Shown here: in pieces, positions 17,417 through 30,978 of the stretch
Position numbering within the stretch: the stretch's first letter is position 1
Layout of the letters: each line of letters starts with the position of its first letter
Assembly: GCA_951812805.1 (NCBI GenBank)
Contig: CATOSZ010000001.1
Location: 372,001-436,000, forward strand
Reading direction: 5' to 3'
Length of the DNA: 64,000 bases
Origin: an uncultured Alphaproteobacteria bacterium
Lineage (GTDB): Bacteria > Pseudomonadota > Alphaproteobacteria > GCA-2731375
Translations under genes and position numbers: made by a program
The notes under the pieces: generated by a model
Told to the model about the DNA's origin: nothing
The model's database searches: none
What the model saw: only the letters and a program-made list of their open reading frames with translations

Positions 17417-19843
17417 TCAGCGCGCCGCCGCGTCCAGCCGGGTGGCGGGCATTTTCGTCGCGACGTCGCCGATGTGATAGTCGTGACAGGTCGTACAGTC
17501 GTTGCCGGCGGCGGTCGCCGTGTGGCACTCGGCGCAGACCGCCTGGCGGATCGGCTTGAAGTTCGAGACGAAATCGTGCGGATCGCGTTTGCTGAACGCG
17601 GCCGTGTAGTCTGCCTTCGTGTCGAGCTTGTGGCACTTGCCGCATCCGGGCATGCCGTCCAGCACTTCGAAATGGGGGGCATGCGCGAACTCGGTGAAGT
17701 CCTGCACATTGGGGCGGGCCTGCAGGCCTTGCCAGTTGATTGCCGCCGTGCCGTCCTCGCGGGCATCGATGCTGTGGCACTTGGCGCATTTACCGGGCGC
17801 CTTGACAGTGGCGAGATCCTCGAAGATCTCGCGGGGCACGCTGCCCGCCTTGCTGTCGGCGCCGAGTGTCATCCAGGCGCGCAGGAACGGATCGGCATGG
17901 CCGCGCGGGCGATACCAGACCGCGAAGCCGTCGACGTACCAGCCGCCGAGCTCGCTCCAGTTCTCCGGGATCGGCTCCTCGATGCGCACGATCTTGGCCG
18001 GCGCGCCGGTGCTCGCCGGTGTGTCGGTGCCCGTGTCGCCATCGCCGCCAAGAATGTCATCGGAGGATGCATCGGCCGTGCCGTCACCGAGAATGTCGTC
18101 GGAGGCGCCGTCGGTCTTGTCGCCGCCGAGGATGTCGCCCGAATCCGCTTTGTCGTCGCCCAGAATGTCGTCGGACCCCGTATCGGCCTTGTCGCCGCCC
18201 AGAATGTCGTCGGAGCTCGTGTCAGATTTGTCGCCGCCCAGGATATCGCCCGAGTCGTTGCCTTCCTTGCCGTCCAGAATATCGCCGGAACCGTTGGCGT
18301 CCTGCGCCGGTGCGGTGGCGGTGTCCGGCGCGGTGGGGTCGGCGGGAAGGGGAACGCTCTCGCCGGCACGGTGGCGTCGGATCTCGTCGGCGAGATCGGG
18401 GAACCAGTCGCGCTGCGCCCGTCTGGCGATATCGATCGACAGGCCACCCAGGAGATCGCGGGGCGCCTGTTCATCCAGCCCGGGGCCCAGCTGCCGTCGC
18501 AACGTCGGCAGCAGCGAGGCCGGTCCTTCCGCCAGCAGGTCGTGCACCATCGCCTTGCTTGCCCAGGCGACGGTGCGAACCGTTTCCAGATCGTCGGCGG
18601 AGGCGTCGGTGAGATCGAGAGGATCCAATTCCTCGAAGCGGGCGAGCGCCGTCGCCGTCGCCGCATCCCGGGCCAGCAGCAAGCGCATGAAGGGGGTCGG
18701 TTTGCCGTCGGCCAGTTCGGGCCAGGCACCGATGGCGACGTTCCTTTCGCGCAAGGTTTCGATATCGAGGCCCGGCAAGGCGAAAACCGGCAGGCCGAGG
18801 GCGCCGGCGACGCCGATGCCGCGCACCTCTTCGTCGTGGCAGGCGGCGCAGGTCGCCTCGAACCCGCGCAGCAGATTGTGCCGTCCCGTCGCGTCGCCGA
18901 CATGGCAGGTAGCGCAGGTCTCCGGCGCGGTCTTGTTTCGTTTGGCCGCCTCGGCGAAGTGGCGGGTGATGTGGTGGGCATGGTCGAACTGGATGCGGGT
19001 TCGGCGCTTGTGCGGATAGCCCTCGAAAGGGGGATGGCCAGCGCCGAAGGCGTCGAACTTCAATTCATGGCAGGACTGGCAACGCGGGTTCGCCACGTGG
19101 CGCAGGTTCGCTTGCGTGCCGCCATGCTCGGCATGGCAGTTGGCACAGCCGATGCCGCCCTGCGTCTTCATCGGCGAGCTGAAAGCGGCGTTCGCCAATC
19201 GCAGATCGACGGGCGTGCTGTGCTCGGGGAAACGCTTCCGGGTCGCGTCGGTCAGGGCGGCCAGCTTGGATGGTTCGACGCTATGTGCGGCGAAGGGCTG
19301 ATCGCCGTGCCGGTGACAGTTCAGGCAAAGCTTGCCGTCGCCCGCGTCCGCCTCGGGCAGGCCGGCGACGGCCTGGTGGATCCAGCCGACGGGGCCCTGC
19401 TTGAAGCCGTCATGACAGCCGCCGCAGTCGTCGATCTGCGCGTGGTGCATCGTCAGCTCGCCGGGCGATAACCAGGCGCCGACATTCTCCCGGCCGAACA
19501 GGATGGCCAGGATGCCGATGGTCACCACCGCCGCCCACCGCACCGCCGCGCCCCGCATTGCACGGAAGCTGCGAAGCGGTTGGCAGGGCCGGATCGGACG
19601 GCAGCAGCGCCCGTCGGGCAGCGGGCCGTCCGCACAGGCGCCGCCCGCGTGGTTGGCGCGGGTGCAAATCCAATTGTCGCCGTCCCGGCGCGGCTCGCAT
19701 GCGGCCACGACGCGGCAATGACCACGCCGGTCCGGGCCGAGCGGGCAGGGCCGTCCATGCGCCAGGCGCCCGCAGACCCAGGGTTGGTTCGGGCGATGAT
19801 AGGCGCCGTCGCCGGTGAGATCGCTTTCGCCGTCGATGCTCAT
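17417..19843 (-). CDS. Membrane-anchored decaheme c-type cytochrome with Cys-rich N-terminus and acidic repeats
   Basis: This is an 808-residue protein. Residues 22-88 hold two tandem modules with aligned cysteines (24, 33, 43, 49 and 60, 70, 80/81, 87). Residues 102-117 are one membrane helix with Arg-rich residues before it, so the N-terminus is probably cytoplasmic and the rest periplasmic. CxxCH sites are at about 140, 173, 233, 255, 310, 332, 686, 734, 770 and 783, giving ten hemes. Between hemes 6 and 7 lie about 170 helical residues and an acidic repeat (518-600). It is the last gene of the operon, and its ATG overlaps the stop of the b-type cytochrome gene. It was not recognised as a named enzyme; a role as an electron carrier across the periplasm is inferred. 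Confidence 0.85.
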   Translation of the reverse strand: MSIDGESDLTGDGAYHRPNQPWVCGRLAHGRPCPLGPDRRGHCRVVAACEPRRDGDNWICTRANHAGGACADGPLPDGRCCRPIRPCQPLRSFRAMRGAAVRWAAVVTIGILAILFGRENVGAWLSPGELTMHHAQIDDCGGCHDGFKQGPVGWIHQAVAGLPEADAGDGKLCLNCHRHGDQPFAAHSVEPSKLAALTDATRKRFPEHSTPVDLRLANAAFSSPMKTQGGIGCANCHAEHGGTQANLRHVANPRCQSCHELKFDAFGAGHPPFEGYPHKRRTRIQFDHAHHITRHFAEAAKRNKTAPETCATCHVGDATGRHNLLRGFEATCAACHDEEVRGIGVAGALGLPVFALPGLDIETLRERNVAIGAWPELADGKPTPFMRLLLARDAATATALARFEELDPLDLTDASADDLETVRTVAWASKAMVHDLLAEGPASLLPTLRRQLGPGLDEQAPRDLLGGLSIDIARRAQRDWFPDLADEIRRHRAGESVPLPADPTAPDTATAPAQDANGSGDILDGKEGNDSGDILGGDKSDTSSDDILGGDKADTGSDDILGDDKADSGDILGGDKTDGASDDILGDGTADASSDDILGGDGDTGTDTPASTGAPAKIVRIEEPIPENWSELGGWYVDGFAVWYRPRGHADPFLRAWMTLGADSKAGSVPREIFEDLATVKAPGKCAKCHSIDAREDGTAAINWQGLQARPNVQDFTEFAHAPHFEVLDGMPGCGKCHKLDTKADYTAAFSKRDPHDFVSNFKPIRQAVCAECHTATAAGNDCTTCHDYHIGDVATKMPATRLDAAAR
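18044..18292 (-). repeat. In-frame acidic tandem repeat (DILGGDK units) in the decaheme cytochrome
   Basis: About seven imperfect units of 11-13 codons encode variations of S-D-D-I-L-G-G-D-K-A-D-T. The segment is Asp/Gly-rich and probably an extended, acidic, unstructured linker between the two heme groups. Slippage between units could change its length. Confidence 0.85.
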
Positions 19844-20661
19844 GGGCTGGTGCCTGCGAACGCATGGACCAGGACCACATGGACGGCTATCAGCAGGACC
19901 GCCGAATAGGTCAGGGGAATGTGGGCGAACAGCCAGATCTTCAGCAGACGCTGCCAGGCGTGCTGGTGATCGAGGTCGTCCTTCGCGACGACGAGGCTTT
20001 GCAGTCGGGCCATGATGTCGCGCCCGCTCGGCGGCAGGTAGCGTTCGAGGTCGCGCAACTCGTCGAGCATTTGCACCGAGGCGCGGCGCGAGCCGAACAG
20101 ATGGCTCCAGAAGTGCCGCGGCCCGAGGAAGAAGGCGCGCAGGCGCTGGCCGTAATAGTCGGCGATCGTGCCGAGTGCCGTCTCGTCGACGGAGCGGGTG
20201 ACCAGCAGTTCCGCTTCACCGGCGATGCGGGCGCGGCGGATCGGTATGGTCTCGTGGATCACGGGCGCGCCCTGCTCCCCCAGTCGGCTCGGAACCAGGC
20301 GGGTAATGGCCAGGCCGAACAGGCCGCTCACCAGCACGCCGACATAGACGCACCAGAGTAGCGTTTCGAAGACGCCGCTCGGCCAATCCAGGCCGACATG
20401 GAGGGCGAACAGCCAGACGGCGAGAAAGCCGCCATAGACATGCAGCTGAAACCATGACGAGGCGCGGCCCAGCGGCAGCACCGGGATCTTCTTTCTGAGG
20501 TTGTAGGCCATCAGCAGCAGCGTGATGGCGACCAGCAGCCACCCGGTCGGAAAGCTGGCGTCGCGCAACATCGCCGCATACAACAGGATCGCCAGGGTCA
20601 CGAGGACCAGCAGGATCGTGGTCAGCAGCGAGAAACGCCAGCGTCGGGTGCGCAGGTTCAT
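19840..20661 (-). CDS. Diheme b-type membrane cytochrome
   Basis: This 273-residue inner-membrane protein has about five helices. Four histidines are placed as two pairs with the same spacing: His74-His88 in helix 3 and His247-His261 in the last helix, suited to hold two b hemes, as in ferric-reductase-like and cytochrome b561-like proteins. A soluble loop of about 110 residues (125-235) lies between. It overlaps both neighbours by four bases. It would pass electrons from the cytoplasmic ferredoxin to the decaheme protein. The ATG at 20661 is preferred; a longer frame upstream is the neighbour's shadow. Confidence 0.8.
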   Translation of the reverse strand: MNLRTRRWRFSLLTTILLVLVTLAILLYAAMLRDASFPTGWLLVAITLLLMAYNLRKKIPVLPLGRASSWFQLHVYGGFLAVWLFALHVGLDWPSGVFETLLWCVYVGVLVSGLFGLAITRLVPSRLGEQGAPVIHETIPIRRARIAGEAELLVTRSVDETALGTIADYYGQRLRAFFLGPRHFWSHLFGSRRASVQMLDELRDLERYLPPSGRDIMARLQSLVVAKDDLDHQHAWQRLLKIWLFAHIPLTYSAVLLIAVHVVLVHAFAGTSP

Positions 20662-22379
20662 GACCAGCGATCCGCCCATTCGGCCAGCGGGCGCGGGTCG
20701 CGCAGGCTGATCCGGACCAGGGCGTCGTGCGGACAGGCGCGTTGGCAGGCCGGCCCGCCCGGCTGGTCGTAGCAAAGGTCGCACTTGGTCGCCTTCAGGA
20801 TCGGCTCGTGCGTTTCGGCATCGACGACGAGGGCGCCCGACTGATCGCGGATCCCGACCATGCGGATGTTGCCGTAGGGGCAGGAGGTGGCGCAGGTCCC
20901 GCAGCCGATGCAGGTCGCGTCGTCGATGATCACGGGGCCGGTCTGGTGGCGATGGATCGCCCCGGTCGGGCAGCCGATCAGGCACACCGGATCGACGCAG
21001 TGCATGCAGGCGTTGGTGATCTGCAGGTTGGCGTGCCGTTCGCCCTCGCGGCGAAAGCGCGGGTTGTTGTTGTGCGCCGTCGCACAGGCGCGAACGCACT
21101 CATCGCAGCCGATGCAGCGGTCGGTGTCGATGACCATGGTCTGTGTGCCGTTGATGGTTCGGCTGTCGACCAGGAAATCGACCAGCGACTGGCTGAGGCC
21201 GACATCGCCGCGCCGTTCGTTCCAGGGCGCCGGCCGTTCTTCCTCGATGACCAGCGCGTTCCGCTCCGCCTCGGTGAGGCGGGGGATGACATATTGTTCG
21301 ACGATCGCCGTCGGCACCCGGATGATGTCGACGTAGCCGACGGCGCGCAGGCTGCGGGCGAACGTCGGCGGGCGTCCCTGCTCGATTTCCGCCAGGATCT
21401 CGGGCAGGCCGAAGACGTCGTTCCGGGTCGCATACCCGACGGTGCGGTGGCCGGCGTCGACCCGCTCGCTGATCCGCGCGAAGCCGGAGCGGATCATCAG
21501 CAGACCGTCGAGGTAGTGCCCTTCTTCCGCGATCACCGGTTCATGTGCGATCACCTCGCCGCCCACATCGGCGCGAATGCGCTTGAAGTCGTGGAACCAA
21601 TCGAAGGTGCCATGGGTCTCGAACTGCACACGCCCGGCGATGGCGCGCATGGTGCCCGCGTCGAGATTGGCGAAGAGGGGTGATTCCGCCAGGTGTTGGA
21701 CCAGGCTCCGTTCGCGATAGAGCGCGTCGATATACTCACGGAAGCGGGTGTCGCGGTGACGGATATCGCGGACACCCTGCCAGCGCACCTCGACGACATC
21801 GGTCACGGTTTCGGCGATGACCGTCGCCGTGCGGGGCGACCGTGCCATGGCCGCGATCTCACCGAACACATCGCCCGGGCCGAGCGCCGTCGTCTTATGC
21901 TGGCCGAGAAAACCTTCGACATTCTCGAGATAGACCCGGCTCTCCGCCGCCGCACCCCGAAGATTGACGCCGGAACCGATCGCCCGGTAGGCGTCGAGAT
22001 CGCGGACCTCCGGTTCGACATCGTTGCGCCAAAGCTGGCGCAGCGCCGACCAGACGCCACGGCGCCGTTCGCGGACGTTCCGGCCCAACTCCTTGTCCGT
22101 CACCCGGTCCAGCACGACCCGGATCTTGCCCTCCTGGATGGCAAAGAGGGAGGAGCCGTAGTCGCCCTCGATGACGACGACGTCGCCGGGCTCGAAGCGG
22201 CGCAGGCGGGCATCGTTACGGATGATCTCGCGCAGCGGCAAACGGTCCGAGAACTGACCGGGATCGAGTTCTCGGAACAGAGGATGGTCGAGCACGGCAT
22301 CGATTTCCGTCTCGCCCATATCGGCGCCGAACGGCCGATCCCAGCGGCGCGGCTGCTCGGTCCGTGTCTGCACCACCAT
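20658..22379 (-). CDS. Two cyclic-nucleotide-binding domains fused to a four-cluster ferredoxin
   Basis: This 573-residue protein has no signal peptide. Residues about 25-210 are a cNMP-binding fold with the phosphate-binding cassette PGDVFGEIAAMARSPRTA (168-185), interrupted by an insertion of about 70 residues. Residues about 230-375 are a second, more divergent cNMP fold (NDVFGLPEILAE in place of the cassette). Residues 420-550 contain 16 cysteines in four groups (422/425/428/432, 458/461/466/470, 490/493/496/500, 533/536/545/549), as in the FeS subunits of NrfC/DmsB/HybA. It likely shuttles electrons at the cytoplasmic face, with ligand control through the cNMP domain. The control is inferred from the fusion. 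Confidence 0.88.
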   Translation of the reverse strand: MVVQTRTEQPRRWDRPFGADMGETEIDAVLDHPLFRELDPGQFSDRLPLREIIRNDARLRRFEPGDVVVIEGDYGSSLFAIQEGKIRVVLDRVTDKELGRNVRERRRGVWSALRQLWRNDVEPEVRDLDAYRAIGSGVNLRGAAAESRVYLENVEGFLGQHKTTALGPGDVFGEIAAMARSPRTATVIAETVTDVVEVRWQGVRDIRHRDTRFREYIDALYRERSLVQHLAESPLFANLDAGTMRAIAGRVQFETHGTFDWFHDFKRIRADVGGEVIAHEPVIAEEGHYLDGLLMIRSGFARISERVDAGHRTVGYATRNDVFGLPEILAEIEQGRPPTFARSLRAVGYVDIIRVPTAIVEQYVIPRLTEAERNALVIEEERPAPWNERRGDVGLSQSLVDFLVDSRTINGTQTMVIDTDRCIGCDECVRACATAHNNNPRFRREGERHANLQITNACMHCVDPVCLIGCPTGAIHRHQTGPVIIDDATCIGCGTCATSCPYGNIRMVGIRDQSGALVVDAETHEPILKATKCDLCYDQPGGPACQRACPHDALVRISLRDPRPLAEWADRWS

Positions 22380-22418
22380 GGCGTTCCGGCTCCCGTCCCG
22401 TGATCGCGCTCGCCGCGC

Positions 22419-23450
22419 TCAGCGCGCCGGCTTCGGCGTGCCCTTCCACTTCTTCTCGCCCGGCAAGGCCTTGTCGATACCGCCGAAGCCGGAACCGTCG
22501 TGCTTCATGGCGAGCGTCGTGGTAAGCGCGGCGATCTCGTCCGCCGCCTTGCTCAGCGCCGGACCGTTATTCAGCTTCAGCTTGGCGCCGGCGGCGACCT
22601 TGGCAATGGCCTCCATCTCCTTCGGTTTGCCGAGCAGCTCGCTCGCCTTGGCGAAGCGTTTGCGGGCGCGGTTGGCCCGTTTTGCCATGGCGACGGCGTA
22701 GCCCGCTTTCGCCGTGGCCTTGCCGACGGCACGAAGCGCCACTTCGAGTTCCACCGCCATGCCGATGACGAACATCAGCCGCTGCCGGTTATGGCTCGCC
22801 GGCGGATTGGCCTTGCCGTCGTTGTACCAGACGTTGTGGCGCACCTCGCCCTGCGACCAGGCGACCAGCTCGAAGCTGCTGCCGGCCGGATGCCCGCCGA
22901 CGTTCACCAGCTTCTCCTGCGGGACCACGTGGCAGCTGTAGCAATTGCGGGCCAGGCGGGGGAGGTCGTGCGGGCGGATCATGCCGGCAGCTTCCGACTT
23001 GGCCCAGCGCGCCTTGGCCTCCGCCTTTGTTTCGTCGGCCTTCTTCTTTTTGCCGGAGAAGCTGGAATGCACCTTGATGTAATCGGCGCCGGAGGCATGA
23101 CACGACTCGCAACTAATGCCGGCGATCGGTTCGGGCTTGCCGTCCTTGATCTGGTTGGTGAAGTGGCAGTCCAGGCAGATGCTGCCTTCCTTGATGCGTT
23201 TCAGGCCCATCTTGCGGGCGATCTCGATGCCCTTCTTGTTGCGGGGCATTTCGCGGAAGGTGGCGAAATGGTGCGTGTTGCGCCAGATCTCGGTGGTGAC
23301 TTTGTGGCATTCCCCGCAGGCCGCCGGCCCGGTGGTCTTGGCCGGGTCGCGTTCGACCTGGGCCCGGACCCCGCCGGGGAGCGCGAGCAGCAGGACGGCC
23401 AGCAGGCCCAGGGCCGCCAGCGGAAGACTTCGGCGGGTATCGGTGGTCAT
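22419..23450 (-). CDS. Periplasmic tetraheme cytochrome c (c554-like)
   Basis: This 343-residue secreted protein starts with a Sec-type signal peptide (hydrophobic stretch about 8-24, cleavage near VRA-QV). Four CxxCH motifs lie at about residues 45, 92, 114 and 170 (CGECH, CLDCH, CESCH, CYSCH), with extra His residues for axial ligation. The C-terminal 150 residues are Lys/Ala-rich helices without hemes. The layout resembles cytochrome c554-type carriers. The ATG at 23450 is chosen because AAGGGGG lies nine bases upstream; ATG at 23459 has no spacing. It is the fourth gene of the operon. Confidence 0.85.
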   Translation of the reverse strand: MTTDTRRSLPLAALGLLAVLLLALPGGVRAQVERDPAKTTGPAACGECHKVTTEIWRNTHHFATFREMPRNKKGIEIARKMGLKRIKEGSICLDCHFTNQIKDGKPEPIAGISCESCHASGADYIKVHSSFSGKKKKADETKAEAKARWAKSEAAGMIRPHDLPRLARNCYSCHVVPQEKLVNVGGHPAGSSFELVAWSQGEVRHNVWYNDGKANPPASHNRQRLMFVIGMAVELEVALRAVGKATAKAGYAVAMAKRANRARKRFAKASELLGKPKEMEAIAKVAAGAKLKLNNGPALSKAADEIAALTTTLAMKHDGSGFGGIDKALPGEKKWKGTPKPAR

Positions 23451-23497
23451 GTGACGCATCCCCCTTGCTTGGATGATCTCGTTCGATTGCATTTTCG

Positions 23498-24769
23498 TCA
23501 GGCGTCCAGCACCAGCGGCCCGGAGGGCACGGCGATGCAGGCGAGGCAGGATCCGGCCTCCGGCGGTGATCCGGGACGGTGCAGATAATCCACCTCGCCA
23601 CTCTTGATCGCGGTCAGGCAGGTCCCGCAACTTCCGCTCCGACAGCCGAAGTCCAGGCGCACGCCGTGCGCCTCGGCCAAATCGAGCAGGGCGCCCGCAT
23701 CGGGTCGCCAATCGACGGTCTTGCCGGAGCGGTCGAAACAGACTTCGATCGCCGCCGCTTCGCCGGCCGCTTTCGCGGCGGCCGGTAGCGGGGCCGACTG
23801 GATCGTCTTGGCGGAAAACGCCTCGGAATGAATACGCTCGCCCGGAACCCCCCATTCCTCGAGGTCGGCTATCACCGTCGCGATCATCGGTGGCGGGCCA
23901 CAAATGTAGAAGTCGTAGTTCTGCACGCCGAGAACTTCCCGGACGATCTCCACCCGGCAACGGCCTTCGTAATCATAATGCTCGCCGAGGCGGTCGTCAG
24001 GCTCGGGATCGCTGTAGAAGGTGACGATGTGGATGTTGGGATGATCGCGGGCGAGGTCGGCGAAATGCGCCCGCATGGCGTGACCCGATCCGCCGAGGAC
24101 ACCGTAGAACAGCCAGGTTTCGCGGTCGTCACCGCTGGCGGCGATGGTGTTCACCATGGACAGCAGCGGCGTGATTCCGACCCCGCCGGCAATCAGCGCC
24201 ACCGGCCTCTCGCTCGTCATATCGAGTGTGAAGACGCCACCCGGCGCCCGGACATCGACGGTATCGCCGACCGCGAGGGCCTCGTGGAAAAAGTTCGAGC
24301 TGACCCCCCGCGGGGCGCTCGGCTCGTTCGGCGGCGGATCCAGGCGCTTGATGGTGACGCGGTAATACTCCCGCTCCAGCGGTGTCTCGGAGAGTGAGTA
24401 GCAGCGAATCACCGGCTTCGGCTGGTCGGGAATGCGCAGCTGGAAGGTGAGAAACTGGCCGGGATCGAAGGGCGGCAGTGGCTTGCGGTCGTGCGGCTCC
24501 AGGTAGAAGGAGACGACGTCCTTCGCTTCCTCTTCCTTGAGTGTCACGGTGAACTTGCGCAGGCCGGTCCAGGACAGCAGCTGTTTGTCACGTTCGACCT
24601 CGGCGGCGCGCAGCATCAGCGCGGCGCGGCGGCGAAAGAACTCCGCGTCGGCCGCATCGCGGCGACTGCGGTTGAGGCGGCCGCGCGCGTTGCCGATCAG
24701 GCTGATCGCCGTCTGCGCCACGGCACCCGCCAGGATCAGGCCGCCGCCGATTTCCAGCCAGCCGGGCAT
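23498..24769 (-). CDS. Membrane-anchored FAD/NAD(P)H oxidoreductase with C-terminal [2Fe-2S] domain
   Basis: This 423-residue protein has one N-terminal membrane helix (about 4-26). Its FAD domain carries RCYSLS (122-127), its NAD(P) domain GGVGITP (195-201) and CGPPPM (290-295), and it ends with a plant-type [2Fe-2S] ferredoxin domain (Cys376, 381, 384 and 408). The order FAD-NAD-FeS matches Hcr/VanB-type reductases. It would deliver electrons from NAD(P)H to the ferredoxin or b-type partner. The start lies two bases after the beta-barrel gene stop, so they are coupled. Confidence 0.9.
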   Translation of the reverse strand: MPGWLEIGGGLILAGAVAQTAISLIGNARGRLNRSRRDAADAEFFRRRAALMLRAAEVERDKQLLSWTGLRKFTVTLKEEEAKDVVSFYLEPHDRKPLPPFDPGQFLTFQLRIPDQPKPVIRCYSLSETPLEREYYRVTIKRLDPPPNEPSAPRGVSSNFFHEALAVGDTVDVRAPGGVFTLDMTSERPVALIAGGVGITPLLSMVNTIAASGDDRETWLFYGVLGGSGHAMRAHFADLARDHPNIHIVTFYSDPEPDDRLGEHYDYEGRCRVEIVREVLGVQNYDFYICGPPPMIATVIADLEEWGVPGERIHSEAFSAKTIQSAPLPAAAKAAGEAAAIEVCFDRSGKTVDWRPDAGALLDLAEAHGVRLDFGCRSGSCGTCLTAIKSGEVDYLHRPGSPPEAGSCLACIAVPSGPLVLDA

Positions 24770-24771
24770 GC

Positions 24772-26040
24772 TCAGAACTGCACCGAGAATTCGGCCCGCA
24801 GCCCCGCGCCGCCGCCGGAATGCTGGTCCATCGAAAGGAAGCCATCCAAGGTCAGCACATAGCGATCGCTTATCGCCTGGCGCAGACGTGCGCCGACGGC
24901 ACCCTGATTGTTCACGCCCCGGTCCGTGCCGACACGACCGCCGGCCTCCAGGATCAATTGGGTGCGCTCGTTGTTCCAGAACATCTGGTAGCCGAGCGCG
25001 GCGCCCACCACGTCGTCGGCCCGGTTCGAGAGCGCAGGGCCGTAGTCGCCGAGGCCGACGGCGGCGAACAGAATGCCGGTTCGCCCGAGCGGTCCTCCCG
25101 CATCACCGTCGCGGGATGCCGAATTGTAGCCGCCGAGCGCATAGAACGCGTCGAGGTAGAGGATGTCGTTGGAGGCGGTCGGCGTCGTCGAAAACTGGCC
25201 GAACAGCAACAACCCGTCGCTCACCCGCGCGTTCTCGTCCTCCAGCGCGAGTGAGACGTTGGCGCGCAGGTCGGTGTTGATCGTCTTGCCGAACATCGCG
25301 ACCCGCTGCACGCTGCCGAGCCCGAGATAAAGTCCGTCCTGGCGTGCGTTCACATAGGCCGCGTCCAGGGTCAGGGTGGAGTTGCCCCAATCCCCCTCGG
25401 AGAACAGACCGAAAAGCTGCGCCGAATTGTCTTCGCGGTTGTCTTCCCGGTTCACCTCGTGAAAGGCCCAGAGCGCGGAGACCCGCGTGTCGATGCTGAA
25501 GCCCGGGATCATGATGGTATCGCGGGTCAGGCTGACGACATCCATCGAGTCGTTGATCATCAGTCCGTCCTGAAACAGGATCGGCTGGCGACCGACGGTG
25601 AAGCCGAGGTCGTAGAGGCCCCGGTCGTCGGGATCCAGGCGCGGGAAGATTTCGGCGATTTCTCCCTCGGCGAAGAAGTGGCTGACCCGGGCGTTGAATT
25701 CCTCGAAGCCGCCATCGGCGCTTCCCGGCTCGAAACGGCGACCGGTGAATTTGTTGCCCCGATGCAAGGGCTGCATGCCGAAGAGGATGCGTTCCGTGCC
25801 GCTCAGCCTCAGATTGGCGAACAGCTCGAGGCGGTTGGCCCATTCGAGGCTTTCCCGGCCGTTGGGATTGTCGTGATAGTTCAGTGCGGTCCGGTAGGAG
25901 CCGAAGACCCAGAGCGCCGGCAGCCAGACCGCACCGGTCGGCAACTCGATGCCCTTGGGCAAATTGCCGGTGCCGAGGAAGTCGGGACCGATCTCGATCA
26001 GCGGCGGCGTGCGCTGCGGCAAATCTTCCTCGGTCGCCAT
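24772..26040 (-). CDS. Outer-membrane beta-barrel protein of the cytochrome operon
   Basis: From the first ATG this is a 422-residue protein made mostly of alternating amphipathic strands and ending in Phe (AEFSVQF), the usual C-terminal signal of outer-membrane barrels. Strand segments such as LGFTVGRQPILFQDGL and LELFANLRLSG suggest about 16-20 strands. It resembles alginate-export/phosphate-porin-like barrels, but the exact family is not recognised. The ATG form lacks a signal peptide; a good one is encoded in frame just upstream (see 26041-26151). Its place in the operon suggests it is the outer-membrane sleeve for the cytochromes, as in Mtr/Pio systems; this is inference. Confidence 0.75.
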   Translation of the reverse strand: MATEEDLPQRTPPLIEIGPDFLGTGNLPKGIELPTGAVWLPALWVFGSYRTALNYHDNPNGRESLEWANRLELFANLRLSGTERILFGMQPLHRGNKFTGRRFEPGSADGGFEEFNARVSHFFAEGEIAEIFPRLDPDDRGLYDLGFTVGRQPILFQDGLMINDSMDVVSLTRDTIMIPGFSIDTRVSALWAFHEVNREDNREDNSAQLFGLFSEGDWGNSTLTLDAAYVNARQDGLYLGLGSVQRVAMFGKTINTDLRANVSLALEDENARVSDGLLLFGQFSTTPTASNDILYLDAFYALGGYNSASRDGDAGGPLGRTGILFAAVGLGDYGPALSNRADDVVGAALGYQMFWNNERTQLILEAGGRVGTDRGVNNQGAVGARLRQAISDRYVLTLDGFLSMDQHSGGGAGLRAEFSVQF

Positions 26041-26151
26041 CGGAATGGGCTCGTCGGAGAGCGCGCTGCCCGCGCCATGGGCCCCGCCCGCGGCGAGCGA
26101 GACGGCGAGAAGCCCGGCGGCGGCGCGACGGGATAGCGGGAAAGTGCTTAT
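26041..26151 (-). other. In-frame signal-peptide coding stretch lacking a canonical start
   Basis: The 37 codons before the annotated ATG of the barrel gene stay open and encode a classic signal peptide (Ser-Arg-Arg, hydrophobic Ala/Leu core, cleavage after Ala-His-Gly-Ala). The first codon of this stretch is ATA at 26151-26149, overlapping the upstream TAA stop as ATAA. A G in place of A at 26149 would give the ATGA overlap seen at two other junctions of this operon. So either ATA is used or the start was lost. Confidence 0.6.
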
Positions 26152-28292
26152 TTGATCGTTACACTGATTTGCTGTTCGGCCACCAGATCGGCGCCTGCCA
26201 CGACCCGGTCGCCGATTTCCTTCGGCGTCATGCCGAAGTCGAAGCCGACGGATTGGATATCGGCCAACAGGTTGACCGGGACCATCTGCGAGACGAAGCG
26301 GGCCTGGATCGTATAGGGGCCCGGACCGGTGAGCGCGGCGCCGTCGACCGCATAAGTCGCCGTCTTATGGCTGAGCGGCATGATGCCCATCTTGTGCTTG
26401 CGCGCGCCGCGCGGCCGGCCGTAGAGCGAGGTCGCGCGGACCTCCGGGCGGATGAAGGGCTGCGGCGAGATCGAGTGGTTGAGGGCCAGCACTTCCTCCC
26501 GCTCGCCGCCGCGGTTGAGACGCACGACGAAGCGGCTTTGCAGGCTGAACAGGTCCTCGTCCAGCGGCGCTTCGCCGTTGTGGACATAGAGCGAGTGGGA
26601 GTCGCGCACATCGCCGTTCGGATCCCGGTCGCCGGAGGCATAGACCAGCTTGCCGCCGGCGTCGCGAACCTCGATCTCCAGGAACATCAACCGCTCGGCA
26701 TCGAAGCCGGTCGGGATGGCATGCCCGCTGGTGATGTTGTGCACGTCGACCTCGAAGCGGAGGCCGTCCGACGTCGCCTGGGTGACGCGGATCGGTTTTA
26801 TCTCGAAGGCGTTGCGCAACACTTCGAGGCGCTGCTGTTTGGCCCAGTCCAGGCGGCGGAACTGCTCGTCCAGGATCTTGCGCGCGTCATAGCGATCGTC
26901 GGCGGAGATCCAGGACTCGGGGAAGGAATGGTCGAGGTCGACCTTATCCTCGAAGACGTCGGTCCCCCAGCCGGCTTCGTGATCGAATTGCAGCCATTCG
27001 CGCAGGCTCTTGAAATTGGCCGCCTCGACGTTGTGGGGGAAGAGGCCGGGGTGGATCACCGAATAATCCGGGCCTGCGAAGAAGTGGTTGGTGACCTTGC
27101 GCGGCCGCGTCGGCACGTCGCCGACGACGGCGGCCGGTGCCGTCTCGTAGCCCGCCGCGACACCCTGCACCTTGCCCATGTGACAGTCCTGGCAGCTGAC
27201 CTTGTCGCCGGCCGCCTTCGATTGCTGGAACTCGGCGAACGCTTCCTCCAGGCGGAAACCGTTCAGCAGGGTGACGTCGTGGCAGCTGCCGCAGAAGCCG
27301 GGCTTGGTGAGCTGGAAGAACTGTTCGGCCTCCGTATGGATGGCGCGCCCGGGTTTGTCGCGTTCCGTGACCACGCGGTATTTCTGCGGCAAGGTGAGGA
27401 TGCGTTTCAGCTCCTTGTCCCCGGTCGGCCCGTAGACGGGACTCAAAAGGTCGCCCTCGTTCAGGGGCAGACGGCCGGAGATCTTGCCGTAATCGCGATT
27501 GACCCGGTGGCAGACCGTGCAGGTGATGCCCTCGCGGCTGGTCGGATGGCGGTCCAGGTTCGAGGTGTAGACCGATTCCCCGAGGTTCATGCCGACCTGA
27601 TTGTGGCACCGGATGCAGAAGTCGCCGTTGGTCCCGGCCGTCTTGGCGTTTACCGCCATCTGGAAGGCCATATAGATCGGGCTCAGCTGTGCGTAGGCAT
27701 GCTGGGAGACGGACCACTGCTCGTATTGGCGGGGGTGGCAGGTCGCGCAAGCGTTGGCGGAGGGGTAGCGGGAGCCCGCGTCCTCGAACACGGCACGATG
27801 CAGCTCGGCGGCGGGCGGGCCGTCAGAAGCCTTCTCGTCCGCTGCCTCCTTCAGCAGGCTGCCGTCGTCGCCTTTTTTGTCGTCCTCGGAGAGCAGGCTG
27901 TCGCCGTCGTCCTTCTTGTCGTCTTCGGAGAGCAGGCTGTCGCCGTCGTCCTTCTTGTCGTCTTCGGAGAGCAGGCTGTCGCCGTCGTCTTTCTTGTCGT
28001 CCTCGGAGAGGAGGCTGTCGCCATCGTCCTTCTCGTCGTCCTCGGAGAGGAGGCTGTCGCCGTCGTCTTTTTTGTCGTCCTCGGAGAGCAGGCTGTCGCC
28101 GTCGTCCGTCTTCTTCTCGCCGTGACTGGCGGCATAATGGCGTGGTGCGACCGTCTCCGGGAACGGACGGACGGGCACATTGTCGGCGTCGACCCGGTCA
28201 TAGACCGCGTCCCTGTCGGCGCTGACGAGCGTGGCCGACGCGAACAGCGCCAGCCCGGAGACCAGGATCATGTGGGCGTAACGACTAAGCAT
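26148..28292 (-). CDS. Secreted pentaheme c-type cytochrome with six-fold acidic repeat
   Basis: This 714-residue protein begins with a signal peptide (hydrophobic core about 8-22, cleavage near VSA-DR). Residues 63-140 are six 13-residue acidic repeats. Five CxxCH sites follow at about 182, 226, 258, 334 and 367. The C-terminal third is beta-rich with TSGHAIPTG, a segment shared by several large multiheme cytochromes of the c554 kind. It is the first gene of the seven-gene operon and the nearest to the palindromic operator at 28398-28421. It is probably periplasmic or at the outer face with the barrel protein. No known reductase active site (for example NrfA CxxCK) is present. Confidence 0.85.
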   Translation of the reverse strand: MLSRYAHMILVSGLALFASATLVSADRDAVYDRVDADNVPVRPFPETVAPRHYAASHGEKKTDDGDSLLSEDDKKDDGDSLLSEDDEKDDGDSLLSEDDKKDDGDSLLSEDDKKDDGDSLLSEDDKKDDGDSLLSEDDKKGDDGSLLKEAADEKASDGPPAAELHRAVFEDAGSRYPSANACATCHPRQYEQWSVSQHAYAQLSPIYMAFQMAVNAKTAGTNGDFCIRCHNQVGMNLGESVYTSNLDRHPTSREGITCTVCHRVNRDYGKISGRLPLNEGDLLSPVYGPTGDKELKRILTLPQKYRVVTERDKPGRAIHTEAEQFFQLTKPGFCGSCHDVTLLNGFRLEEAFAEFQQSKAAGDKVSCQDCHMGKVQGVAAGYETAPAAVVGDVPTRPRKVTNHFFAGPDYSVIHPGLFPHNVEAANFKSLREWLQFDHEAGWGTDVFEDKVDLDHSFPESWISADDRYDARKILDEQFRRLDWAKQQRLEVLRNAFEIKPIRVTQATSDGLRFEVDVHNITSGHAIPTGFDAERLMFLEIEVRDAGGKLVYASGDRDPNGDVRDSHSLYVHNGEAPLDEDLFSLQSRFVVRLNRGGEREEVLALNHSISPQPFIRPEVRATSLYGRPRGARKHKMGIMPLSHKTATYAVDGAALTGPGPYTIQARFVSQMVPVNLLADIQSVGFDFGMTPKEIGDRVVAGADLVAEQQISVTIK
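27873..28106 (-). repeat. 39-bp tandem repeat, six copies, in frame
   Basis: Six nearly identical 39-bp units encode D-D-G-D-S-L-L-S-E-D-D-K-K, followed by a decayed seventh. Unit differences are mostly silent or Lys/Glu swaps. Length change by slippage would stay in frame and alter linker length only. Confidence 0.95.
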
Positions 28293-28397
28293 GAGCCTCT
28301 TCGCGCATTGTTTCTGTACCCGAGGTGTTCATCCAGGGCGCGCATTCTAGCCAAGGACGCGCGAGCTGGTCACCAGGGAATCTTATCAAGAGTGTGT

Positions 28398-28421
28398 CAT
28401 CACGTGCCGTGATGCGCATCA
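28398..28421. promoter_or_regulatory. Palindromic operator array of Crp/Fnr type
   Basis: Three alternating half sites occur in 24 bases: CATCACG (28398-28404), CGTGATG (28408-28414) and CATCACG (28418-28424 partly beyond). The second and third form TGATGCGCATCA at 28410-28421, matching the Fnr/Crp-type core TGAT-N4-ATCA. It lies 118 bases before the pentaheme gene (possible minus-strand -10 TAGAAT at 28349-28344) and 104 bases before the GMC gene. Confidence 0.45.
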
Positions 28422-28452
28422 CGTCCGCCCGGAAATTTTCACCGGCATCGGT

Positions 28453-28480
28453 TTGTGGCGGCGGCCGGGCCGGCTAGACT
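28453..28480 (+). promoter_or_regulatory. Candidate promoter for the GMC oxidoreductase gene
   Basis: TTGTGG at 28453-28458 and TAGACT at 28475-28480, spacer 16 bases, resemble a sigma-70 promoter 46 bases before the start codon. The palindrome centre at 28415.5 would then lie near -71, a usual class I activator position. Confidence 0.3.
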
Positions 28481-28525
28481 CCGCCGGTGGACCGATGTGG
28501 ATGCTGGGGTAGGGAGTGATTTGGC

Positions 28526-30169
28526 ATGGCGGAAAGCTTCGACTTCGTGGTGGTCGGTGCCGGCTCGGCCGGCTGTATTCTGGCGAATCGGCTGAGTGCC
28601 GGGGGCGAGCACAGCGTCTGTCTGTTGGAGGCCGGTGGTCGCGATTGGAACCCCTACATCCACATTCCCGCCGGTTTCATCAAGCTCTTGACCAATCCCA
28701 GCGTCAACTGGCTCTACCAGGCGGAACCCAGCCATTGGACCGGCGGGCGGACCATCGACGTGCCGCGCGGCAAGACACTTGGCGGCTCGTCCTCGATCAA
28801 CGGCCAGATCTACAATCGGGGCCAGCGCATGGACTTCGACACCTGGTCGCAGCGGGGAAATCGCGGCTGGGGTTATGCGGACGTCCTGCCCTACTTCAAG
28901 CGGTGTGAGCGGCGGGTCGGCGGCGCGGCGGACGATGATTTCCGTGGCCGCGAGGGCAATCTGACGGTGAGCGACCTCGGCTATACGCATCCATTGTGCG
29001 AGGCCTTCATCCGGGGCGCCGAATCGATCGGTATTCCGCGCAATCCGGATTACAACGGGGCACGGCAGGAGGGTATCTCTTACGTGCAGCGGACCCACCA
29101 GGGCCGCACGCGGATGAGTTCGGCCCGCGCCTTCCTTGGCCCGGCTAAATCCCGCCCCAACTTGACCATCCGCACCGGCGCCCATGCCACCCGCCTGCTG
29201 TTCGAGGGCAAGCGGGCGACCGGCGTCGAGTATGCCAAGGGCGGGCGCGGCGGCGCCACGGTCGAGGTGCAGGCCCGGCGCGAGGTCATCGTCGCCGGCG
29301 GCGCCATCAACTCGCCGCAGTTGCTGCAACTCTCGGGTATCGGGCCCTCCGGCCTGCTGGGCGAGCTGGGCATCGAGGTGCGCCATCATCTGGCGGGCGT
29401 CGGCGAAAACCTGCGCGACCACTACGCGCCGCGTTTCTCGATGCGGGTGAAGAACGCCGAGACCCTCAACGAACGCAGCCGCGGGCTGAACCTCGCCGGC
29501 GAGATCGCCAAGTACCTGTTGGGCGGCAAGAGCATCGTCAACCTCTCCCCCTCCATGGTCTACGGCTTCTGGCATTCGGACGAGGCGGCGCGCAGCAACG
29601 ACCTGCAGTTCATCTTCACGCCGGCGAGCTACAAGGTCGGCGTGCACGGCCTGCTGGACGACCATCCGGGTTTCACGACGGCCTGCTGGCAGCACCGGCC
29701 GCTTTCCAAGGGCTGGATCCGGGCCCGTTCGGCCGATCCCTTCGAAAAGCCGATGATCCAGCCGAACTATCTCGACCATGAAGAAGACCGGCGGATCACC
29801 GTACAGGCCATGCGCTTCGCCCGCCGGCTCATACATACGGAGGCGATGCAGCCCTATCTCGACGGCGAGGAGTATCCGGGCGAAGCGGTGCAGAGCGACG
29901 ACGAGCTGCTGGAGGCGGCGCGACATTACGGCTCGACCACCTTCCATGTCATGGGCAGCTGCCGCATGGGCCCGGCCACGGACCCGACGGCGGTGGTCGA
30001 CGACGAGCTGCGCGTACACGGGACGGAGGGGCTCAGGGTGATCGATGCCTCGGTCATGCCGGTGATGCTGTCCGCCAACCTGAACGCCGCCACCATGATG
30101 ATCGCCGAAAAGGGCTCGGACATGGTCCTCGGAAAGCCGGCGTTGGAGCCGATCATCATGCCGGAGTGA
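28526..30169 (+). CDS. GMC-family FAD oxidoreductase (choline dehydrogenase-like)
   Basis: This 547-residue flavoprotein oxidises an alcohol. The N-terminal dinucleotide motif is VVGAGSAGCILANRL, the GMC signature GKTLGGSSSINGQIYNRG is near residue 90, the second is GAINSPQLLQLSGIG near 255, and the C-terminal active-site region contains HVMGSCRMG. Many family members act on choline, polyethylene glycol or long-chain alcohols; the substrate here is not predictable. A Crp/Fnr gene follows on the same strand. Confidence 0.92.
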   Translation: MAESFDFVVVGAGSAGCILANRLSAGGEHSVCLLEAGGRDWNPYIHIPAGFIKLLTNPSVNWLYQAEPSHWTGGRTIDVPRGKTLGGSSSINGQIYNRGQRMDFDTWSQRGNRGWGYADVLPYFKRCERRVGGAADDDFRGREGNLTVSDLGYTHPLCEAFIRGAESIGIPRNPDYNGARQEGISYVQRTHQGRTRMSSARAFLGPAKSRPNLTIRTGAHATRLLFEGKRATGVEYAKGGRGGATVEVQARREVIVAGGAINSPQLLQLSGIGPSGLLGELGIEVRHHLAGVGENLRDHYAPRFSMRVKNAETLNERSRGLNLAGEIAKYLLGGKSIVNLSPSMVYGFWHSDEAARSNDLQFIFTPASYKVGVHGLLDDHPGFTTACWQHRPLSKGWIRARSADPFEKPMIQPNYLDHEEDRRITVQAMRFARRLIHTEAMQPYLDGEEYPGEAVQSDDELLEAARHYGSTTFHVMGSCRMGPATDPTAVVDDELRVHGTEGLRVIDASVMPVMLSANLNAATMMIAEKGSDMVLGKPALEPIIMPE

Positions 30170-30261
30170 TGTGTTTCGGCAGCGACAAGTTGCTTTCGCG
30201 GGCAAATCGCTGGAGACTCCGACGCGAACCATGAGTTTGAGCGAAACCGGGAAACCCTACC

Positions 30262-30978
30262 GTGGAACGTGATTCAACGGACGATCTCAGCCGGATCGAG
30301 CTGTTGTCGAAACTCGACAGCGAGACCCTGCGCAACCTGACGCGGCGCTGTCGCTGGCGTCGGATCGCCGCCAAGGAGACCATCGTCGACAGCGACGACG
30401 ATCAGGGACACGACGTCTTTTTCGTCGCCGAGGGCCGGGTCCGCATCGTCAACTTCTCGCCCGCGGGAAAGGAAATCGCCTTCGCCAACATTCCCCAGGG
30501 CGGCTATTTCGGCGAGCTGGCGGCGCTGACCGACCGGCCGCGCACCGCCAGCGTCGTGGCCGTCACCGCCTGTCGTATCGCCTCCCTCGCGCCGTCGATC
30601 TTCCGCCAGCTGTTGCTCGACCACCCCGAACTCGGCATCGATGTGATCCGTCAGCTGGGCGAAATCGTCCAGCAGTGCGATCAGCGGATCATGGACCTCA
30701 GCACGCTCAGCGCGGTCCAGCGCGTCCATGTCGAGCTGTTGAACCAGGCCGAGGTGGACGAGAGCAATCCGGAACAATGGATCATTCGCCCCTTCGGCAC
30801 CCACTCCGAGATCGCCGCCCACGCCAGCACGACCCGGGAGACCGTCGCACGCACCATGACGGCCCTTTCCGTCGCCGGCATCGTGGAGCGCAAGGGCCGC
30901 GAACTGTTCATCTACGATCACGAGCGGCTGGAAGAAATGGTCGAAAGCGGCGCCGCCCAGATGCTGGCCGCGAGATAG
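30262..30978 (+). CDS. Crp/Fnr-family transcriptional regulator (cNMP-binding type)
   Basis: This 238-residue protein has an N-terminal cNMP-binding beta roll with the cassette GGYFGELAALTDRPRTAS (about residues 75-92), including the Glu and Arg used to hold cyclic nucleotide, and a C-terminal winged helix (HSEIAAHASTTRETVARTM). It has no N-terminal Cys cluster, so it is not an oxygen-sensing Fnr. The start is GTG at 30262; no in-frame ATG is available upstream. Given the TGAT-N4-ATCA palindrome 1.8 kb away and the cNMP-ferredoxin gene in the operon, it may control that operon; this is inference. Confidence 0.88.
   Translation: MERDSTDDLSRIELLSKLDSETLRNLTRRCRWRRIAAKETIVDSDDDQGHDVFFVAEGRVRIVNFSPAGKEIAFANIPQGGYFGELAALTDRPRTASVVAVTACRIASLAPSIFRQLLLDHPELGIDVIRQLGEIVQQCDQRIMDLSTLSAVQRVHVELLNQAEVDESNPEQWIIRPFGTHSEIAAHASTTRETVARTMTALSVAGIVERKGRELFIYDHERLEEMVESGAAQMLAAR

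Follow-up and report, generated by a model that had tools for sequence, protein, structure and literature searches.

Organization of the locus

The window, by which we mean the whole 64-kb stretch of DNA analysed, contains 19 CxxCH heme-binding motifs, and all of them fall inside three genes, A (five), D (four) and G (ten). Shuffled sequences gave 2.10 ± 1.46 such motifs, and none of 100 shuffles reached 19. These three genes belong to a set of seven, which we designate A to G in the order of their transcription:

26148–28292, minus strand: A, pentaheme cytochrome c of 714 aa (motif count, domain search, homologue alignment, profile match to 5ZE8)
24772–26151, minus strand: B, outer-membrane beta-barrel of ~459 aa including the signal peptide, mature part at 24772–26040 (structure model, fold match)
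23498–24769, minus strand: C, membrane-anchored FAD/NAD(P)H reductase with a Fer2 [2Fe-2S] domain at the C-terminus (domain and family search, alignment)
22419–23459, minus strand: D, secreted tetraheme cytochrome c, c554-like (motif count, domain search, profile match to 1BVB)
20658–22379, minus strand: E, soluble protein with two domains of the cNMP-binding type and a C-terminal ferredoxin region with 16 conserved Cys, four 4Fe-4S sites (domain search, alignment)
19840–20661, minus strand: F, inner-membrane diheme cytochrome b with five helices (helix prediction, motifs)
17417–19843, minus strand: G, 10-heme cytochrome, comprising a Cys8 N-terminal domain, one transmembrane helix, six hemes, an acidic linker and four hemes (motifs, alignment, topology prediction)
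28293–28525, no strand assigned: region between A and a divergent GMC oxidoreductase gene, the likely site of the operon promoter, judging from the gene layout

The sequence-only reading of this DNA had proposed seven genes in one direction, from 28292 to 17417, with cytochromes c of 5, 4 and 10 hemes, a barrel, an FAD/NAD(P)H-[2Fe-2S] reductase, a cNMP ferredoxin and a diheme b-type protein, and all of these are borne out in position, heme count, domains and motifs. It had also counted two 4-bp overlaps between genes. There are in fact three, B/C (24772–24769), E/F (20661–20658) and F/G (19843–19840), with a probable fourth between A and B. This last one is likely because the signal peptide of B is encoded in frame only upstream of the first ATG of the gene (26040), from an ATA at 26151 that shares bases with the TAA stop codon of A, while no ATG, GTG or TTG precedes the signal peptide in the interval 26040–26160. 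B probably starts at this ATA, which is either a rare AUA start codon or a base error, and a 4-bp A/B overlap occurs at the corresponding place in three relatives (L084, L051 and L086). Adjoining the start of the operon, at 28526–30978, there are the divergent GMC oxidoreductase gene and a gene for a Crp-type cNMP-binding regulator.

A previously named gene cluster

The same set of genes was described from genomes as “PCC4” by He, Barco, Emerson and Roden (2017; PMC5566968), whose available text defines it by a porin, an inner-membrane protein, other redox genes and three multiheme cytochromes (MHCs), which carry 4, 5 and 10 heme motifs. The inner-membrane protein is described there as having five transmembrane segments, with WX3HX13H on the third and fifth and SGXXG on the fourth, and subgroup II as carrying a pfam13247 Fe-S gene upstream of it. 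In the window, a porin and MHCs with 4, 5 and 10 hemes lie in one cluster; F carries W70/H74/H88, W243/H247/H261 and S112-G113-x-x-G116; E matches PF13247 (3.7e-8) and is encoded directly upstream of F; and C, a redox gene, directly precedes the tetraheme gene D, as in PCC4. Nor is an extracellular MHC predicted for the window, another point in common with the published clusters: CxxCH is confined to A, D and G, whose locations are predicted to lie elsewhere. Every defining sequence feature examined is thus present, and the operon of the window belongs to PCC4 subgroup II. The sequence-only reading had considered the set to have no known name, a view that it had itself staked on the lack of an earlier description and that falls with the paper of He et al., as available to us: the gene cluster is already described, and its name, though provisional, is published.

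PCC4 was first found in the genomes of Fe(II) oxidisers, and in the accessible parts of PMC5566968 its electrons are drawn as flowing from an extracellular donor to the quinone pool, extracellular electron transfer being put forward as a hypothesis there as well. The open-access literature yielded no experiments on PCC4, and under that name only genome studies were found. In its available text, that paper names neither the window organism nor several of the additional phyla as hosts, and it likewise makes no mention of the barrel fold, the Cys8 domain, the DDLL-type arrays or the conserved cNMP pocket. What the present analysis adds to it is the type of barrel, a set of spare histidines for the 19 hemes, the cNMP pocket, the Cys8 domain, the acidic arrays and an alternative porin/decaheme pair.

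The inner-membrane module

The reductase C combines FAD_binding_6, NAD_binding_1 and Fer2 domains (Pfam), with the reductase domains of Hmp as its best family match (2.9e-68), and the four cysteines of its Fer2 domain (C376/381/384/411) are conserved at 0.98 in the homologue alignment. E contains cNMP_binding and Fer4 domains, PF13247 among the latter, and the 16 cysteines of its ferredoxin region are conserved at 0.97–1.00. The phosphate-binding cassette of its cNMP domain, FGExAAxxRxPR, keeps G173 and E174 at 1.00 and R183 at 0.98 in 65 homologues; with both the glutamate and the arginine of the cassette in place, E is predicted to bind a cyclic nucleotide.

F, whose start lies at 20661, is predicted to contain five helices, and its W70/H74/H88 and H247/H261 are invariant (1.00), with W243 at 0.99. 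This protein had no match in Pfam or NCBIfam, nothing significant in a profile search of the PDB and no relative among viral contigs. Two HX13H pairs are also found in NOX enzymes and ferric reductases (FRE), where electrons pass from NAD(P)H through FAD to two transmembrane b hemes. Those enzymes differ from the window in that an FRD-family membrane domain and the flavin domain are on the same chain, whereas F carries no such fusion: here the flavin module is separate, on C, a cNMP/4Fe-4S protein (E) is added, and a long chain of c hemes follows.

The cytochromes D and G

D has a Cytochrome_C554 domain (Pfam) and matches cytochrome c554 itself (1BVB, profile E 3.6e-13), a remote relative that aligns over part of the protein. 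Its four hemes are accompanied by four invariant histidines outside the heme motifs (H64/131/190/208, all at 1.00). G, which contains a domain of the cytochrome c7/c3 type (Pfam), has ten conserved histidines of this kind for its ten hemes, eight of them at 0.93 or more and two at 0.72–0.78, and A has at least five for five hemes. The conserved spare histidines therefore suffice for all 19 hemes, and, although conservation is not coordination, this fits electron transfer through bis-histidine hemes with no vacant catalytic heme. Catalysis of the HAO or NrfA type was considered and rejected, as the models of the catalytic cytochromes score far below their cut-offs and the spare histidines are enough for every heme. 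In keeping with the earlier reading, no catalytic mark of MtrA/MtrC, NrfA or HAO is recognisable in the domain and family models or in the alignments.

Ahead of its hemes, G bears a domain (residues 15–90; 19574–19801 of the window) made of two four-cysteine repeats, C24, 33, 43, 49 and C60, 70, 80, 87. Since this Cys8 domain is followed by arginines and by one transmembrane helix (~98–116), it is predicted to face the cytoplasm. Neither G nor this N-terminal domain gave anything significant in the PDB profile search; the model of the domain (pLDDT 81.8, pTM 0.57) had no Foldseek match, and no relative of G was found among plasmids. Most homologues of G keep the Cys8 domain, which is absent from the Hyphomicrobium types and from locus L053. 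The Hyphomicrobium clusters lack E too, and the idea that the domain always accompanies E was rejected with L053, which has E without the domain.

Another peculiarity of the cluster is the presence of acidic DD(L/I)(L/F) arrays in disordered parts of A and G (L037, L040, L041, L043, L046, L065, L068 and L072). In the window they are located before heme 1 of A (residues ~55–150) and between hemes 6 and 7 of G (~515–605), where the acidic linker shows repeats of the SDDILGGDKAD type. The motif was counted 78 times in A, against 11.6 in shuffles, and 111 times in G, against 26.6, while the counts in the other five proteins are far nearer to those of shuffles. Within a locus, the motif count of A is correlated with that of G (Spearman 0.59, n=28, a statistic that ignores descent). 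The two proteins sometimes share the same local variant of the array, such as SLLPP in L048. A role of the arrays as electrostatic tethers for a basic D is unsupported, as D is acidic in the array-bearing loci L068, L049 and L102.

The outer-membrane pair

The pentaheme protein A consists of a signal peptide, a disordered N-terminal region with ~6 DGDSLLSEDDKKD repeats, the five CxxCH motifs and a C-terminal region with an invariant SGHxxPTG histidine in the homologue alignment. It carries a Cytochrome_C554 domain (Pfam) and resembles the pentaheme c552 of Thermochromatium tepidum (5ZE8, profile E 3.4e-15), the match including the histidine-bearing C-terminal domain; this relative is remote as well and covers A in part. 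B gave no match in Pfam and nothing significant in the PDB profile search. Its AlphaFold model (pLDDT 88.6) shows about 18 barrel strands, and its best fold matches are the OccK/OprD porins and AlgE (Foldseek E down to 7e-11; VIA Z 24–28).

A barrel gene beside a multiheme cytochrome gene, together with periplasmic and inner-membrane carriers, is what the cluster has in common with MtrCAB, MtoAB and PioAB, and it invites the notion of an insulated wire, in which A would be inserted in B and make direct contact with solids. All 29 of the listed A/B pairs that share a strand are indeed adjacent, most of them separated by about 100 bp or less, and the published name, which in the available text of PMC5566968 stands for porin-cytochrome complex, conveys the same idea. 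The proteins themselves, however, make a wire of this kind quite improbable. Conduits of the MtrB type have 26 strands and hold a decaheme cytochrome of the MtrA type. B is modelled at about 18 strands with the OccK/OprD/AlgE folds, and A is a large, two-part protein with five hemes, related to pentaheme c552 and unlike the linear MtrA; A reaches 31.8 bits with TIGR03508, the DmsE/MtrA-type decaheme family, where the cut-off is 192.2. The window differs from those systems, moreover, in its reductase on the NAD(P)H side. MtrB was not among the 50 VIA-align entries listed for B, which by itself is no proof of difference. Judging from the model of B, the barrel would be too narrow for a wire of the MtrAB type, and A is unlikely to sit inside it. 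With B (modelled alone) as an ~18-strand porin fold and A being large, the step at the outer membrane would more likely be the entry of a solute than a wire.

The trans-envelope conduit of the sequence-only reading consequently stands in part: the carriers do form a candidate chain that begins with NAD(P)H chemistry in the cytoplasm, crosses the inner membrane and ends in cytochromes of the periplasm and outer membrane, but a conduit in the MtrAB sense is doubtful for a barrel predicted to have the fold of a solute porin.

Distribution and modularity

When 84,980 species genomes were scanned with the alignment of G, 75 loci emerged, and linkage was counted in the 50 of them whose sequence extends 6.5 kb or more upstream of G. 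All 50 also have F and C, 49 have D and 47 have E, so that the neighbourhood search confirmed a gene order kept far beyond chance. The three loci without E belong to Hyphomicrobium/Filomicrobium and match the published PCC4 subgroup I. At least six phyla have the core, and the full arrangement A-B-C-D-E-F-G occurs in Poribacteria, Nitrospinota, Hydrogenedentota, Planctomycetota, Verrucomicrobia, and Gamma- and Alphaproteobacteria. That the seven genes lie together by chance, with no functional unit, is a notion for which nothing was found and which the same linkage in six phyla makes practically negligible.

Within the class of the host, 19 of 289 sampled genomes have an N-terminal domain of the G type. 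In the tree of E, the copy of the window groups with other alphaproteobacterial copies and apart from those of a genus (g2) of its own family, and both types coexist in one genome (G004; L029 and L030). These sequences point to at least two lineages of the cluster in the family of the host, a pattern that falls short of proving transfer.

The outer pair is less constant than the core: 25 of the 50 loci have A and B next to it, and the other half have no A and B in the sampled stretch. An alternative pair, in which the barrel protein is large (about 800 aa) and the cytochrome has 10 hemes in about 1300 aa, occurs near the core, or near part of the core, in Verrucomicrobia of the Opitutus type (L093, L096, L101, L104; also L099, L100, L107 and L108). 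It is also present in one relative of the host (G014, L035), with a barrel protein of 626 aa and with an E-like protein fused to an FAD-dependent reductase. As judged from published descriptions, this pair probably corresponds to the verrucomicrobial porin-MHC cluster (He et al. 2017 mSphere, PMC5615132) and to the ghost-rock group 1 PCC (PMC13264449), which have the ~800-aa barrel protein and the ~1300-aa cytochrome in place of A and B; a ferredoxin-NADP reductase near such porin/MHC pairs was noted in PMC13264449. The combination of one inner module with two different outer modules supports a role spanning the envelope.

Two other arrangements were observed. One genome (L025 and L055) has a small separate unit, convergent with the C-E-F-G cluster, in which A and B are joined by another tetraheme gene of the D type. 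A glutamate dehydrogenase gene lies near five clusters from Alphaproteobacteria, Nitrospinota and Poribacteria (L038:5433–6803, L040:9312–10691, L041:13018–14397, L060:11035–12414 and L064:10723–12015).

Proposed direction and control of electron flow

From the genes, their cofactor motifs, the conserved ligands, the predicted topology and the linkage, we infer an order of carriers, a direction, a control and a kind of acceptor, which together make up the reading that we hold to be probable, if by no means assured: a cNMP-gated export of electrons drawn from NAD(P)H. C would take these electrons onto its FAD and [2Fe-2S] centre at the inner face of the inner membrane, and the four [4Fe-4S] sites of E would receive them next; from there they would move to the two b hemes of F and so across the membrane to the ten hemes of the membrane-anchored G, reaching into the periplasm. 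The soluble tetraheme D would carry them from G to the pentaheme A, and B, a porin of ~18 strands co-inherited with A, would serve as the entry port that admits a soluble acceptor or shuttle to A, more likely than as a heme wire. Binding of a cyclic nucleotide to E may switch this drain of NAD(P)H on or off.

Export is favoured by the conservation of an NAD(P)H reductase, by the host genome, which has two heme-copper oxidases and gave no match to RuBisCO, and by thermodynamics, as electrons travelling from NAD(P)H to the periplasmic side move downhill in potential and also with the membrane potential. The opposite direction is the one proposed by He et al. (2017), in which Fe(II) or Mn(II) would be oxidised at the outer membrane and the MHCs would carry electrons inward to F and the quinone pool. 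The first finding of PCC4 in Fe(II)-oxidiser genomes, as given in the available text of PMC5566968, speaks for such an uptake, and so does the resemblance of the two HX13H motifs of F to those of quinone-active cytochromes b; indeed, F could be a quinone-active protein that bypasses C and E, which counts against export. However, uptake has no need for C or E, yet C is linked to G in 50 of 50 loci and E in 47, the host lacks a RuBisCO match, and an onward flow to NAD(P) would be uphill. Taken together, these points render uptake rather unlikely.

Another explanation is a non-respiratory enzyme in the style of NOX or ferric reductases, devoted to assimilatory ferric reduction, metal detoxification or periplasmic redox homeostasis, with electrons moving from NAD(P)H through the b hemes to the periplasmic cytochromes and on to a substrate entering via B. 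The HX13H pairs, the NAD(P)H-FAD module, the small-solute porin fold of B and the two heme-copper oxidases of the host all suit it, but nineteen hemes look excessive for assimilation, and an unsystematic look at the neighbours revealed no gene for siderophores or iron uptake, so that we regard this explanation as unlikely.

As for the control of NAD(P)H-fed export, gating is supported by the conserved cNMP cassette of E and by the class III cyclases that are encoded beside several clusters. Such cyclases, with or without CHASE2, adjoin the cluster in eight loci of verrucomicrobial type and four of planctomycetes, and genes for class III adenylate/guanylate cyclases, many of them carrying CHASE2, lie beside or near it in L097–L100, L105–L107 and L109, in L069, L075, L076 and L080, and in L072, L037 and L045. 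The host genome (7.4 Mb) has 89 PF00211 class III cyclase matches. Adjacency as a general proof of gating is weakened by this number and is confounded in cyclase-rich genomes. The clusters of the Hyphomicrobium type, which have no E, imply that gating would not be universal.

A bolder proposal, possible but doubtful at present, is that C-E-F-G constitutes the core of a split, NOX-like and cNMP-gated reductase from NAD(P)H to the envelope, and not a porin-cytochrome wire, with interchangeable outer modules (A and B, or the large barrel and its decaheme cytochrome), where the DD(L/I)(L/F) arrays on A and G would tether the chain at both ends to one partner that they share across the periplasm.

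Implications

Clusters of the PCC4 type are widespread in marine and soil bacteria. If they export electrons from NAD(P)H under the control of a second messenger, to an acceptor met behind an ordinary porin, then the presence of PCC4 in metagenomes would be misread when it is taken as a marker of Fe(II) oxidation or of contact with minerals.
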